From a virus, in the IMG/VR virus record IMGVR_UViG_3300009183_000314, positions 1 through 27,180 of that record: a DNA stretch of 27,180 nt; one strand, written 5' to 3'. How positions within the stretch are numbered: the stretch's first letter is position 1; every line of letters begins with the position of its first letter. The notes beneath the pieces are model-generated. The model was not told the DNA's origin, searched no databases, and worked only from the letters and a program-made list of their open reading frames with translations. The position numbers and the translations under genes were made by a program. Positions 9,268 to 27,180 of the stretch are shown in pieces.

Positions 9268-12200
9268 TTAAATCTCTCCTGTGTTCTTGACACGCAATGG
9301 AATGTAAATGAACTCAACAGCTTTAACAGGTTCAATTGCGATGTCAACCCATAATTCGTTGCGATCGATTCTTGCTGGTGTGTTATTGCTTTCATCACAA
9401 ACAACTGCAAAGTCATACAGAGCTCTTAAACCTACGAGTTCAAGTAACAAGCTCTGGCATGCCTGCTTGATTTCATCACGTGTGATTGAATCATTTGGTT
9501 CAAAAATGTACGGACGAGCAAGTTTGTTTAGTTGGCTACGTAAGTAAACTACTAAACGTGCTACGTTAATGCGATCCAATGCTGATGCATTTCTTGCACG
9601 AGTCTTTTGACCAAAGTTAATTAAACCAACACCGTTAAAGAATGTAATCGGGTTAATCTTCAAGTCATACAATGTATCACGTTGACCTTCATTCAATGCT
9701 ACTGTTTGGAATTCACCAGTAGCAGCATCAATGTAACCAACTGCTGTTGCGTTAGTAATACCACCGCGTCTTGTACCTGCTGGAGCAAACCATGGGTAAG
9801 AAGCGTTGTCACTTAATGCAATAGTTTTCAACATCATGTGTGAGCTTGGAACAACTGCGTTTGAACCACCTAAGTCTGTTGTGAAACCACTTGGATAGAA
9901 CACGCCTAAGTATTCGTCATATGTAACGATGCCCTTGTCGCCGTTGTCTGTTACTAATTCTGCATTAGTACCCCAATTTGTTAATGTTGTAGCATCAGAT
10001 GCCAAACGTAATGGTGTATCACCGATAACAAATGCTGTTACACCACGGTCGATGTTTAGGTTAACAAGATTGCTCATTACTTCAGGATATCCTGGAGCAG
10101 CAATAATGTTAAAGTTACGACGTTCTTCATCACGGATTTCAGCACTTGTATCAATTGCCGACTTCATTGCAGCTACTACAACTGCACGTTGAGCGTGGTG
10201 TAGGAATGTGCCTGAACCATCTTCTGCATTCGGTGAAGCTGTAACCCAACGAGCTTGCTCTGTATAGCCGCTCATTTGTTCTGGGGTAACTACAGCATTG
10301 CCTAAATCGCTGGCTGTTGCATCATAACGTTCATTACTTAATGTTTGATCAATAAAGTTTGTAACATATTTCTTAACATTGCCGTCTGATCTACGTGTGT
10401 TCCATAACAACATACCTTTTGGATATAGTGCTGGGTCTGGAGCATCTGGGTCTAAGTAGTTGTCGGATAATAGTGTAGCAATAGTTGCTGCGGTATTACC
10501 TGTAGGACCGGATGAACCATAACGTGCATCAGCAAATAGGATACCTTCTTCTGTAGTTTGATCAGTTTTGTCAACTAATTCCCATTTCTCGGAAGCAGGA
10601 ACACCTTGGATGTTGCTGTCATAACGATAGATAGTTGGGAAATTTTCTAAGTCAGCAGTGCTGATCCACAAATCATTATCCTGGAATGTTACGCCACCTG
10701 TGTACGGATTGCTCGCTGACACTGTAGGACCTGCTGCTTTTGTAGAAGCAAATGTGTTTTTGTATCCAGTCCATGTACGACCGTTGTGTACCATAATATC
10801 AATTTCGCTGACACTTGAGTTATACCATAACTGTTCTTCTGCCGGGTCGTTCTGTGGTGCGCTTGGAGCAGCAATAAAGTTGCTGGCTGCCAACGGCTCC
10901 CAATTTGAAGCAAGATAGCTCTGAGATGCTGCTGTTGCTAAAGGACCGCTACCGTCTGTTGCAGAACCAACTGACAAGTTATAGAAATTTTCTGTACCTG
11001 TCAATGCGTTGATATTGTAAGGTGTAAAGATATCTGCCAGTGGAGTACTTGTACCATCAGTGAATCTAATATCGCCGCCAAGGTTGTGGTAAATCTGTAG
11101 TTTGTTGTCTGAGGTAACTGCTGCTTCAACGTTAACAAATCCAGCTGCGTTAATTGCTGTTGCAATTTTTTCAGCGTCATCAGCATCACCTAAGAGTGCA
11201 TTGCTGGTTGCTGAGCTTAACGTAATTGTTTTTGCTGTATCCAGTGCAACTTGACCTTTTAATGATTCTGCCATTGTAAAGGTATTTGTACCAGCTGTTA
11301 ACGATCCTGTAGTAATTACAGAAGACGTAATAGTTGTATATGCACCTACACCTGCAGCACGTTTCCAAACACGGAATGTTGCTGTTTCTGGGAGTGCATC
11401 ATATTTTGTATCTTCGTTGGCATTAGTTTGAACAAACAATGTCGTAGTTTCTAATTTTGCACCGCCACCTGCACGATCGAGATAATACAGAGCTGCGTTT
11501 GTAGAAGCATATAAGTATGCATCATATGAAACCCAAGTTTCTGTTATTGCGTTCCAACGCTTGGCAATCCAACGTGCTCCTGCATTTGGTTCTGTAGTTT
11601 TGATCCATACTGAACCCGTTGGGCGACCGTATGCCATTGTAGCATCGCCTTCGTCATCACTGTCACCGCGTTTAAATGTAGGAACTTGTGTATGAGGACT
11701 TTGTACTAACTTAGGACCATGGTACGTACCTGCTGTGATATTAATACCTGCTGAGCTAATAACTCCAGGAGCAGATGCGTTGCCAATTGTAATAGCATTA
11801 GATAGTGAACTATCGCCCACTGTATCAGTTTGAGCGTCAGTGTAAAGATATAATTTGCTGCCAACTGCTTTTGCTGTAATACCAGTGCCGCCTGTAGTTA
11901 AGATATTAATCTTATTAGCCACTGATGAAGCAGTATCAGATGTTGAAACACTGATTTGTGTTCCGTTGATTTCAAATGTGCCCGCTGTAGGAGTTGCTGC
12001 TACAGATCCGCCAATGATCGTCGGGTGGCTTGCTGCCCATTTCTTAGAACCAACTAATACCCACTCGCCTGCATTGACTGCTGTGCCACCACCGCCAGCA
12101 ACACCGCCATTGCCTGCTGACTTGTAGTAAATTCTTGCAGTTTCTTTGGCTGCTGTAAATGTACCGCTACCATCAACTGTTTGGAATACAACTGCGTAAT

Positions 12201-12786
12201 CACCAATTTGACCTACGCCTGTTTTTGGTGCATACCCTGTATTTGCATCAATTCTTGATGCATCGTCGTCTGTTAAGATGATTGGCAATTTTAATGTAAA
12301 TTTCTGGCCACCGACTGTCGAAGCTGCTGCACCGTTCCACTCTTGGATACCCCAAGCTGTAGAAGTTGCATCTATCCACCATTGTCCGTCATCTGGATTT
12401 GCTCCCGGGGCGGAACCTGCTGCTACTAATTGCGATAAATCAACGTCAGCACGTACAATAAATGCTGCATTGCTTACCCCGAGTAAGCTATAAGCTGCTA
12501 ATAGACCGTATTCGTTACGTTCACCACCGTGTACTGGGTTAGATGAAGTTGTCTTTTCAAAGAAAGGTACACCGAAAGCATCAACAAGATCTTTCTGACT
12601 TGTAACCTTAAATGCCTTGCCAGCATTTGTCTTAGTGGTTGCAGTGGCAGTACCTGTGCCTGCTGCGTTTTGTTTGTCCTGGGCTGTTGCCACAACGATC
12701 AATGGAGTAGTACCAGGTTCTGCTGGTGTGTAAAAACTCTCGTCGATAACTGTTACGGCTACGCCTGGTGATTGTAATGTCGCCAT
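9268..12786 (-). CDS. 18: Tail sheath protein gp18, greatly enlarged
   Basis: The contractile sheath subunit. At 1172 residues it is far longer than T4 gp18 (659). Conserved ends: N-terminal LQSPGVAVTVID (4-15), a VTSQKDLVDAFG strand-helix (about 60), AAYSLLGVSNAAFIVRA (about 97-113); C-terminal core from about residue 740 with RNFNIIAAPGYPE, ITFFNGVGLINFGQKT, SALDRINVARLVVYLRSQL, FEPNDSITRDEI and the last strand VDIAIEPVKAVEFIYIPLRV. Between about 125 and 740 lies a Thr/Ala/Gly-rich insertion with several W-rich hairpin modules and a possible Ig-like part, probably displayed on the sheath surface. The start has AGGAGA eight nt upstream and a late motif about 35 nt upstream, so this message has a real leader, unlike its neighbours. 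Trp-containing modules also occur in gp14, gp15 and the fibre proteins here. Confidence 0.95.
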   Translation of the reverse strand: MATLQSPGVAVTVIDESFYTPAEPGTTPLIVVATAQDKQNAAGTGTATATTKTNAGKAFKVTSQKDLVDAFGVPFFEKTTSSNPVHGGERNEYGLLAAYSLLGVSNAAFIVRADVDLSQLVAAGSAPGANPDDGQWWIDATSTAWGIQEWNGAAASTVGGQKFTLKLPIILTDDDASRIDANTGYAPKTGVGQIGDYAVVFQTVDGSGTFTAAKETARIYYKSAGNGGVAGGGGTAVNAGEWVLVGSKKWAASHPTIIGGSVAATPTAGTFEINGTQISVSTSDTASSVANKINILTTGGTGITAKAVGSKLYLYTDAQTDTVGDSSLSNAITIGNASAPGVISSAGINITAGTYHGPKLVQSPHTQVPTFKRGDSDDEGDATMAYGRPTGSVWIKTTEPNAGARWIAKRWNAITETWVSYDAYLYASTNAALYYLDRAGGGAKLETTTLFVQTNANEDTKYDALPETATFRVWKRAAGVGAYTTITSSVITTGSLTAGTNTFTMAESLKGQVALDTAKTITLSSATSNALLGDADDAEKIATAINAAGFVNVEAAVTSDNKLQIYHNLGGDIRFTDGTSTPLADIFTPYNINALTGTENFYNLSVGSATDGSGPLATAASQSYLASNWEPLAASNFIAAPSAPQNDPAEEQLWYNSSVSEIDIMVHNGRTWTGYKNTFASTKAAGPTVSASNPYTGGVTFQDNDLWISTADLENFPTIYRYDSNIQGVPASEKWELVDKTDQTTEEGILFADARYGSSGPTGNTAATIATLLSDNYLDPDAPDPALYPKGMLLWNTRRSDGNVKKYVTNFIDQTLSNERYDATASDLGNAVVTPEQMSGYTEQARWVTASPNAEDGSGTFLHHAQRAVVVAAMKSAIDTSAEIRDEERRNFNIIAAPGYPEVMSNLVNLNIDRGVTAFVIGDTPLRLASDATTLTNWGTNAELVTDNGDKGIVTYDEYLGVFYPSGFTTDLGGSNAVVPSSHMMLKTIALSDNASYPWFAPAGTRRGGITNATAVGYIDAATGEFQTVALNEGQRDTLYDLKINPITFFNGVGLINFGQKTRARNASALDRINVARLVVYLRSQLNKLARPYIFEPNDSITRDEIKQACQSLLLELVGLRALYDFAVVCDESNNTPARIDRNELWVDIAIEPVKAVEFIYIPLRVKNTGEI
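10560..12411 (-). other. Surface-type insertion inside gp18 (approximate borders)
   Basis: About 615 residues not needed for the sheath core. It holds beta-rich, low-charge sequence with modules such as GQWWIDAT...EWNG, GSVWIKTTEP...WNAITETWV, EQLWYNSS...VHNGRTW and NDLWISTA...YRYDS. Borders are set by eye from where T4-like sheath sequence stops and resumes. Confidence 0.6.
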
Positions 12787-25038: not shown

Positions 25039-26190
25039 TTAAAGACCAGCGAAGCTCTTAACTGTAAGAGACCCCACCATGCCTACGTGTCCTGAGCACT
25101 GATAACGGTATCCGCCGGATATTCCGTCTGGAACTTTCCAGTATAAAGTTCCGGCGGTTTTCCCCTGTGCTGCGCTACCAGTGGATACTACGCCCAGTGT
25201 TGAAACGTGTACCAAACCAGTATTGTAATTAACACCCGTAGGATCTTGTATCTGGAAGGGATGTCCTGTACACTGTAAATTAAATGCTATAGTAGTTCCA
25301 GAAATTGCGTAAACTGTAGGGTTGTCGCCCGAATATTGATCGAATTGATATGCAGCAGCTAATCTATTGGTAACATTTAGACGGGTTATTGCAGGCAGAT
25401 AAACCTTATCTACAGTTAATCCTGCTGCTGATACATCGCTGATATCTGCCCAGCTGTCAATTGCATATTCGTTGTGAATTTCGACAGCATTTGTAGCAAC
25501 ATCGGTAGTGATTGCAATACCAGTCCCTGCTGTAATTGTTAATGAACTACTGGTTGATCCAGCTACTATGTTGGATTGTCCAGTAACTGATATAGTAGAA
25601 AATGCTGAAGATTCTACAGAATTTACCCAAGTTGTTCCATTGAATTTTAATACCTGATTTGTTGTTGGGCTCGATACTACTACATCGGATAATTCGTCAA
25701 GCATAGTAGCACCACCGCCACTACCGCCGCCTACATTGTCAGTTCCGTTAACCCAAACGCTGCCATTATATTTTAATACCTGGCCAGATGTTGGATTTGA
25801 AATTGCAACGTCGGTTAGGTCAACTACAGCAGTTGCACCAGTGCCACCACCGCCAGCGCCGTAGCTGGGGGTATTTGGTTGTACCCACTGTGTGCTGGTA
25901 CCGTCATTGTAATAAATGTATAATCTGCCGTTGGCAGTATTAAACCAAATAGTACCTGCTTGTACTGCGCTGCCAGTTGGGGGAGTTGCTCCAAGAGCTG
26001 CTCCGATTACACTTTCTGCGTTAGAAAGGTCTGCTTTAAGTAGAGGAATACCGCCCGAAGTTTGACCATCATATAGTCGTAATGTATTGTCTGCTTGGTC
26101 GTAAAATACTTCTCCGCGGGCCCCCAGCTTTCGATCTAAGTAATCTTTAGCCTGGGGAATTATTCGTATGTTGCTCGATACTTTTGACAT
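25039..26190 (-). CDS. Tail-fibre-type protein with a C-terminal cupredoxin-like domain (383 residues)
   Basis: Seen in order: an N-terminal part with RGEVFYDQADNTLRLYDG (about 25-42) and GTIWFNTANGRLYIYYNDG (key part of 79-97), both fibre-type hairpins; Gly-rich linkers; two tandem copies of a module L.DV....P...QVLK(Y/F)NG..WVN (about 123-153 and 165-195); a beta segment with SLTITAGTGIAI; and a C-terminal domain (about 287-383) in which GHPFQIQ (His310) and YRYQCSGHVGMVGSLTV (Cys365, His368, Met371) carry the four type-1 copper ligands in the order and C-x2-H-x2-M spacing of amicyanin. Domains of this look occur in other marine phage fibres as I recall, but copper binding is not established for this one. 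GAGG lies upstream of the start, with a leader from a late motif at 26215. Confidence 0.75.
   Translation of the reverse strand: MSKVSSNIRIIPQAKDYLDRKLGARGEVFYDQADNTLRLYDGQTSGGIPLLKADLSNAESVIGAALGATPPTGSAVQAGTIWFNTANGRLYIYYNDGTSTQWVQPNTPSYGAGGGGTGATAVVDLTDVAISNPTSGQVLKYNGSVWVNGTDNVGGGSGGGATMLDELSDVVVSSPTTNQVLKFNGTTWVNSVESSAFSTISVTGQSNIVAGSTSSSLTITAGTGIAITTDVATNAVEIHNEYAIDSWADISDVSAAGLTVDKVYLPAITRLNVTNRLAAAYQFDQYSGDNPTVYAISGTTIAFNLQCTGHPFQIQDPTGVNYNTGLVHVSTLGVVSTGSAAQGKTAGTLYWKVPDGISGGYRYQCSGHVGMVGSLTVKSFAGL
25042..25332 (-). other. Cupredoxin-like domain of the 383-residue fibre protein
   Basis: His310 (25261-25263), Cys365 (25096-25098), His368 (25087-25089), Met371 (25078-25080) read directly as CAT/TGC/CAC/ATG. 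The beta pattern (TTIAFNL, HVSTLGVV, GTLYWKVPDG, YRYQC, GSLTVKSF) is that of a plastocyanin-like sandwich. Confidence 0.65.
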
Positions 26191-26304: not shown

Positions 26305-26946
26305 ATGACTGAAAATACAACACCTGGCGCAGATGGATTAATACCTAAAAAAGTTGCCAAAATATTTCCAACATATATTCTTGGATACGATAATCCAAAT
26401 CATGAGATTCAAAACAAATCATTGATTGAGGTTTTAGAAACTATGGAGTTTACTCCAGGCCCGCATCAGCCCTATCAAACCATTGATAATCATTTAGAAC
26501 AACATGCTGGATTTTCAGACTTTTTTAAATGGGTCGATATCTGCTTAGAAGACTATCGTAGAACATTCAAGTATCACTGCGAAGAATTTAAAACTGTAAT
26601 TGCGTGGGCAAACAAAGCCGACCAAGCCGGTGCTCACAGAATGCACGTACACCCCAACAGTTTTATTTCTGGGATTTATTATATTTCAGAAAATCCCAGT
26701 CCTACATTTTTTGAAGACCCTCGCTATCAAATACGCAGCGGTCTTACAGTGGCATCACACGCTCAAATAGCAGACAATGTCTGGCCTTGCCCTTCTGAAA
26801 CTGGATCCTTGGTATTATTTCCGTCCTGGTTGCCGCACTACACCGATGCACAGCCGTTTGAAGGGTGGAGATATACAATATCAATGAATGTTATGCCTGC
26901 CGGTTACACTAACAAAGGCAGCTTGACTGAGTTAAAATATGGCTAA
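26305..26946 (+). CDS. 2-oxoglutarate/Fe(II)-dependent oxygenase family protein
   Basis: 213 residues, phage 2OG-oxygenase type (the 'SGIYYIS' subfamily). Seen: a helical N-terminal half; then HRMHVHPNSFISGIYYIS (key His111, His114, His116), PTFFEDPR, and GSLVLFPSWLPHYTDA with His178 as distal ligand, followed by WRYTISMNV with Arg189 placed to bind the 2-oxoglutarate carboxylate. A canonical HxD pair is not obvious: the motif reads H-V-H-P-N, so the exact iron ligands are uncertain. Such genes sit near tail and fibre genes in cyanophages and pelagiphages and may hydroxylate a protein, possibly a virion component; substrate unknown. The start has AAAGAGG upstream. Its end overlaps the next oxygenase gene by 8 nt. 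Confidence 0.82.
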   Translation: MTENTTPGADGLIPKKVAKIFPTYILGYDNPNHEIQNKSLIEVLETMEFTPGPHQPYQTIDNHLEQHAGFSDFFKWVDICLEDYRRTFKYHCEEFKTVIAWANKADQAGAHRMHVHPNSFISGIYYISENPSPTFFEDPRYQIRSGLTVASHAQIADNVWPCPSETGSLVLFPSWLPHYTDAQPFEGWRYTISMNVMPAGYTNKGSLTELKYG

Positions 26947-27180
26947 TTTTAAATTAACTGATTTTATTTCGGTGCAGAAAGACATTATACCTAAAGACGT
27001 CTGCGAACAGGTTATCAAAGACACAGAAAATATTAATTGGACTAAACACGCTTGGTATGACCCAGAAGAAGATAAAAGCACTTCATTTGAAGATAAAGAG
27101 TTAGATGTGCTATTTCCGCCAGGAAATATATCTCAATTGTTGTTTAAATATGTCACTGAACAATTTAGCAAATATGGCGA
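26939..27180 (+). CDS. Putative second 2OG/Fe(II) oxygenase, N-terminal part (runs off right edge)
   Basis: The first 80 residues are visible: MANFKLTDFISVQKDIIPKD then CEQVIKDTE, NINWTKHAWYDPEED, a LDVLFPPGNISQLLF segment and FKYVTEQFSKYG. The pattern 'IIPKDVCEQVI...W..H.WY' is that of the N-terminal helical part of phage prolyl-hydroxylase-like oxygenases; the iron and 2OG motifs would lie beyond the window, so the call rests on the N-terminus and the neighbour. The ATG at 26939 lies inside the end of the preceding gene (8-nt overlap, different frame), indicating translational coupling and a shared transcript. Confidence 0.55.
   Translation, partial: MANFKLTDFISVQKDIIPKDVCEQVIKDTENINWTKHAWYDPEEDKSTSFEDKELDVLFPPGNISQLLFKYVTEQFSKYG

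Follow-up and report, generated by a model that had tools for sequence, protein, structure and literature searches.

What would a fold of the blue-copper type be doing at the end of a virus tail protein? Folds of this type are familiar from electron carriers and from domains of oxidases and reductases. The question is raised by an IMG/VR virus record of 27,180 bases, analysed over its whole length and referred to here as the window. Pfam and PHROG profiles identify in it genes for terminase, head closure, tail tube, tail sheath, a sheath stabiliser (T4 gp15-like) and virion structural proteins, and because of this gene set its source is a T4-like contractile-tailed phage. The tail sheath protein (window positions 9268-12786, minus strand) is long, at 1172 amino acids, and the general sheath family PHROG 23 covers only its last ~490 residues. 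On the plus strand, a 2OG-Fe(II) oxygenase gene (26305-26946; PF13759, 7e-17) precedes another open reading frame (26939-27178), of which only the start lies inside the window.

The protein of interest has 383 residues, of which residues 121-380 match PHROG 677, 'baseplate wedge tail fiber protein connector' (E = 8.5e-29); it is the C-terminal half of the family that is matched. Its neighbours are a 193-residue tail-fibre-like protein and a 2103-residue virion structural protein. Residues 14-103 are similar to cyanophage structural proteins (tblastn; PHROG 3304 and 9729), and residues 1-280 contain two fibre-type repeats, DLTDV..NPTSGQVLKYNGSVWVN and ELSDV..SPTTNQVLKFNGTTWVN. A T4 gp9/10 N-terminal domain (T4_gp9_10_N, PF07880) was not matched in the protein by Pfam. 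We are firm in regarding the domain under study as the C-terminal part of a baseplate/tail-fibre-connector-type protein. The original prediction had set the domain at the tip of a tail fibre: it is C-terminal here, but the best family is that of a connector, and in about half of the family copies the open reading frame continues beyond the domain. Similarly, the limits first given, the last ~97 residues (25042-25332, corresponding to residues 287-383), correctly mark a C-terminal unit but start slightly late, as the homologous unit begins at about residue 281 (25350). The four putative ligands, His310, Cys365, His368 and Met371, are exactly where they had been placed (Table 1), and they take four of the nine cysteine, histidine and methionine residues of the protein (2 Cys, 4 His, 3 Met).

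Table 1. Coordinates of the tail/baseplate protein, its parts and the predicted ligand residues in the window.
Feature	Position	Strand	Basis
Tail/baseplate protein, 383 aa	25039..26190	-	Open reading frame; PHROG 677 match
N-terminal and middle part, residues 1-280	25351..26190	-	Sequence; tblastn; PHROG 3304 and 9729
Cupredoxin-like (predicted) C-terminal domain, residues about 281-383	25042..25350	-	Profile match 281-378; AlphaFold; PDB fold matches
His310, predicted first ligand, in GHPF motif, at the position of the plastocyanin PHN histidine	25261..25263	-	Plastocyanin alignment
Cys365, predicted thiolate ligand, final residue of modelled strand 87-93	25096..25098	-	Alignment; AlphaFold model
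His368, predicted second His ligand, loop between the last two strands	25087..25089	-	Alignment; AlphaFold model
Met371, predicted axial-type ligand	25078..25080	-	Alignment; AlphaFold model

Kinship with cupredoxins was reached through family profiles only. Searches of the whole protein against Pfam and NCBIfam returned nothing useful, and phmmer against the PDB gave zero matches. The window domain scores 14.0 and 13.3 bits against PF00127, below the cut-off of 21.2. Among family members, 18 of 24 match PF00127 at E <= 0.5 (best 3.5e-6), and one relative matches the NCBIfam amicyanin model TIGR02657 at 7e-6. A profile built from 24 relatives detects plastocyanin (1.4e-3) and, at 2.6e-4, a nitrite reductase that contains a cupredoxin domain (9cck). 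The printed profile alignments bring all four residues (His, Cys, His and Met) into register with the plastocyanin ligands, in agreement with the amicyanin-like C-x2-H-x2-M spacing that had been pointed out. An hhalign comparison of the domain family with seven cyanophage plastocyanins and two bacterial cupredoxins gave a probability of 90; the Cys, His and Met were aligned and His310 fell off the plastocyanin ligand histidine. Overall, His, Cys, His and Met are correctly placed both in sequence and relative to the strands.

The AlphaFold model of residues 273-383, built with an alignment of 80 sequences, has a pLDDT of 88. In it, Cys365 closes one strand, His368 and Met371 lie in the next loop and His310 stands just before a short strand; this predicted order of strands and ligands is the cupredoxin layout. 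The best PDB match found by Foldseek is amicyanin (E = 8.6e-4, probability 1.00), with further matches to more amicyanins, purple cupredoxin, rusticyanin and plastocyanin, at modest TM-scores to solved cupredoxins (0.37-0.57). Ig domains are also among the fold matches. To settle the family, we modelled a close but shorter phage relative (L044), which reached a pLDDT of 91 and for which the 50 best PDB matches listed consist entirely of cupredoxins and of copper enzymes that contain such a domain, with plastocyanin and amicyanin leading; a cupredoxin among these matches, 4hcg, was solved with zinc. Both models point to the Greek-key beta-sandwich of cupredoxins, and given TM-scores of just 0.34-0.59 the window domain would be a divergent member. 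We interpret the profiles and models to indicate that the last ~100 residues are a cupredoxin-like beta-sandwich with a complete predicted His2-Cys-Met type-1-style site, which upholds the central claim of the original prediction.

The site is also conserved. A first alignment of relatives proved too diverse for a pattern search; five scans of viral contigs yielded a family of 190 distinct domains. The full H/C/H/M set is present in 183 of them, and free variation of the ligands among homologues was not seen. The remaining seven comprise two domains whose C-terminal end is incomplete and five that lack both histidines. Considered column by column, His occurs at position 310 in 184/190 domains, Cys at 365 in all 186 that have a residue there, His at 368 in 183/188 and Met at 371 in 186/188, which places these columns among the best conserved in the domain. 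The ligand histidines behave as a pair: both are present in 183 domains, neither in five, and no domain is mixed. The histidine losses (L011, L190, L210 and L050/L051) occupy separate positions, two of them (L190 and L210) on long terminal branches, in a domain tree that has few columns and many weak forks. One of these ligand-poor members (L210) groups with the window domain, is 43% identical across the whole protein, and has GLSM in place of GHPF and GRIAM in place of GHVGM. Since some lineages are without the histidines, the metal would be dispensable at least there.

Two other explanations for this conservation were considered and rejected. One of the viral-contig scans used ligand-spanning peptides, and another was seeded from a ligand-less member with peptides free of both ligand histidines; almost every relative recovered by the latter nevertheless has HCHM, which argues against a search artefact. 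A disulfide role for Cys365 cannot hold for the family in general, as 128 of the 225 distinct proteins that carry the domain have no cysteine besides the ligand one (in single-cysteine proteins, that cysteine is the ligand one in 128/128). Separately, we observed one phage lineage (L050-L054; open reading frames at ~5010 and ~5809, with other coordinates in L052) that carries a ligand-free copy together with a more distant, ligand-bearing copy in the adjoining open reading frame.

The original prediction also pointed to similar sequences in other marine phages, and this proved accurate. A search of 50,697 phage records with the domain found matches in 273, almost all from Synechococcus or Prochlorococcus phages. 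Eleven cyanophage isolates picked from these matches, and thus having at least one copy each by construction, carry 1-4 copies; those located are mostly in structural-type proteins, and the main copies retain the four ligands. In Syn9, the PHROG 677 gene, annotated as T4 gp10-like, is flanked by fibre and baseplate-wedge genes. The baseplate-wedge protein beside this connector (Syn9, L294:6691-10854, and the matching gene in L296, L300, L301 and L304) holds a second, more distant stretch, GHPMQFSTT...YYYC..H..MSG, which is internal. S-CREM2, whose virion proteome was examined as possible proof of display, has no copy of the domain.

The domain is also found behind collagen-like stretches of phage proteins. 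In bacteria it lies at the end of surface-type proteins from Flavobacteria and their relatives, from a myxobacterium and from an actinomycete; some of these carriers also have DUF7282, CHRD or collagen repeats. In Bacteroidota surface-type proteins (L307-L310), the HPF...C..H..M domain is terminal and follows DUF7282 or CHRD-type repeats. This breadth, which encompasses T4-like cyanophage baseplate-wedge/connector proteins, collagen-like fibres and bacterial surface-type proteins, was missed in the original prediction. What the phage structural-type and bacterial surface-type carriers have in common is exposure outside a cell. When ranked by variability, the loop positions beside the ligands fall at the 98th (367), 87th (369) and 79th (370) percentile.

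Variable loop positions, combined with the extracellular exposure of the carrier proteins, favour a metal-clamped display module with a variable face. Specifically, we suggest that the domain is such a beta-sandwich module on the baseplate or fibre of T4-like aquatic phages, a reading that we consider to have an even chance of being correct. The four ligand residues would bind one soft metal ion, preferably copper. The metal would clamp a loop at one end of the sandwich and so give a stable, protease-resistant module, and the variable loop residues around it may contact the host surface or neighbouring virion proteins. The role would be structural or adhesive rather than redox. From sequences and models we infer that a metal is bound and that its identity is copper; virus particles probably carry a metal, and most likely this one. 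Copper is expected from the ligand set, yet zinc-bound cupredoxins exist (4hcg). Phage assembly takes place in the cytosol. Most bacterial cuproproteins, by contrast, are periplasmic or membrane-bound (PMC3817396). For these two reasons, loading of the metal would be likelier after lysis or at the host surface.

An alternative is that the domain is a sandwich derived from cupredoxins whose site holds zinc or iron, or is usually empty, with the ligands persisting as fold-supporting residues. The zinc in 4hcg would be consistent with this, as would the natural members that lack both histidines in otherwise intact proteins, including the relative that is 43% identical over its whole length (L210). 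Counter to this, all-or-none retention of the histidines and the long branches that follow their loss fit a working metal site better than they fit packing. Furthermore, Cys, His, His and Met together in a cupredoxin fold are a copper signature. We regard another metal or an empty site as rather unlikely.

About equally improbable, in our judgement, is that the metal site serves as a recognition device that binds a copper- or other metal-bearing receptor or complex of the host. Two points speak against such use: known cupredoxins hold their metal themselves and mostly keep it buried, and the domain is also present on bacterial proteins of the surface type, which are not components of phages. 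We know of no receptor for recognition of this kind. Arguing for it are the virion-type protein, the C-terminal location of the domain in the window and the variable loop around invariant ligands, as well as an analogous proposal for iron in tail fibres, the Trojan Horse (PMC11705849).

The full type-1 ligand set with amicyanin spacing could instead indicate a redox-active blue copper centre that donates or accepts electrons at the host envelope, or that mimics plastocyanin. Electron carriers do matter to such phages, given that a true plastocyanin is also encoded in 8 of the 11 sampled cyanophages. However, a conserved docking partner should hold constant the residues next to the histidine that cupredoxins expose, and these residues vary strongly and are often polar. 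Additionally, the carriers are phage structural-type proteins and surface-type proteins of unrelated bacteria, among which no shared partner is seen. Mimicry of a host electron carrier, which had been raised among the original suggestions, is disfavoured because few parts of the domain vary as much as the loop around this histidine. Electron transfer is an unlikely role on the sequence evidence, and we give a redox centre little weight. Finally, that there is no metal site, and that the residues are a chance arrangement in an ordinary Ig-like fibre domain, is extremely improbable: Ig domains are indeed among the weak fold matches of the window model, but the idea is already contradicted by the conservation of all four residues and the joint pattern of the histidines, and it leaves aside the profile matches to cupredoxins and the solely cupredoxin matches among the 50 listed for the shorter relative.

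Returning to the metal-clamped display module, we should consider a more far-reaching version, which we put forward tentatively and think less than likely. The virions of T4-like cyanophages and their relatives may be copper proteins, with type-1 sites that are loaded outside the cell and a metal state that controls the stability or triggering of the attachment apparatus. If so, very abundant phages would be copper-dependent and would constitute a pool of bound copper in the ocean. More generally, a conserved blue-copper fold in marine cyanophage tail proteins suggests that metal supply could affect virus stability, infection and the trace-copper chemistry of the sea. Natural ligand-free relatives, one of them close to the window protein (L210), represent a ready-made control.

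How does the domain compare with known systems? It shares with type-1 cupredoxins (plastocyanin and amicyanin; PF00127, TIGR02657/TIGR02656) a predicted beta-sandwich and the order of a His followed by Cys-x2-His-x2-Met at amicyanin spacing, with ligands that align residue by residue. It differs in that those proteins are secreted electron carriers, whereas here we find a domain of a phage structural-type protein, in that the window member falls below the PF00127 cut-off, and in that GHPF replaces PHN. Between its first His and the strand that carries the Cys, the window domain also has a longer insert (about NYNTGLVHVSTLGVVSTG) than its short relatives. Compared with PHROG 677 of marine T4-like cyanophages (Syn9, P-SSM7 and Syn19), the C-terminal half is the same, including HPF...C..H..M, and the isolates keep the four ligands; the Syn9 member, however, starts with the T4 gp9/10 N-terminal domain (1.3e-10), which the window protein lacks at the Pfam level.

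By sequence, a related HPF...C..H..M domain is present in the At5g54830-like domain (PF25489) and in bacterial surface-type proteins with DUF7282 or CHRD. These proteins are cellular rather than virion parts, and the PF25489 matches are below the cut-off of that family. Literature searches, which covered open-licence papers, returned no paper on cupredoxin domains in phage tail proteins. The closest precedent for a metal is iron, which is held in tail fibres of the T4 gp37 type by His-x-His motifs and for which a Trojan Horse in host recognition has been proposed (PMC11705849). In both cases a phage tail protein would hold a metal ion, as predicted here, and a role in host recognition has been proposed; in the window domain the ligands are His2CysMet, the fold is another one and another metal is expected. 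Thus, if the sequence comparisons and models are correct, a type-1-style site in a cupredoxin fold on baseplate and fibre proteins would put a known fold to a new use.
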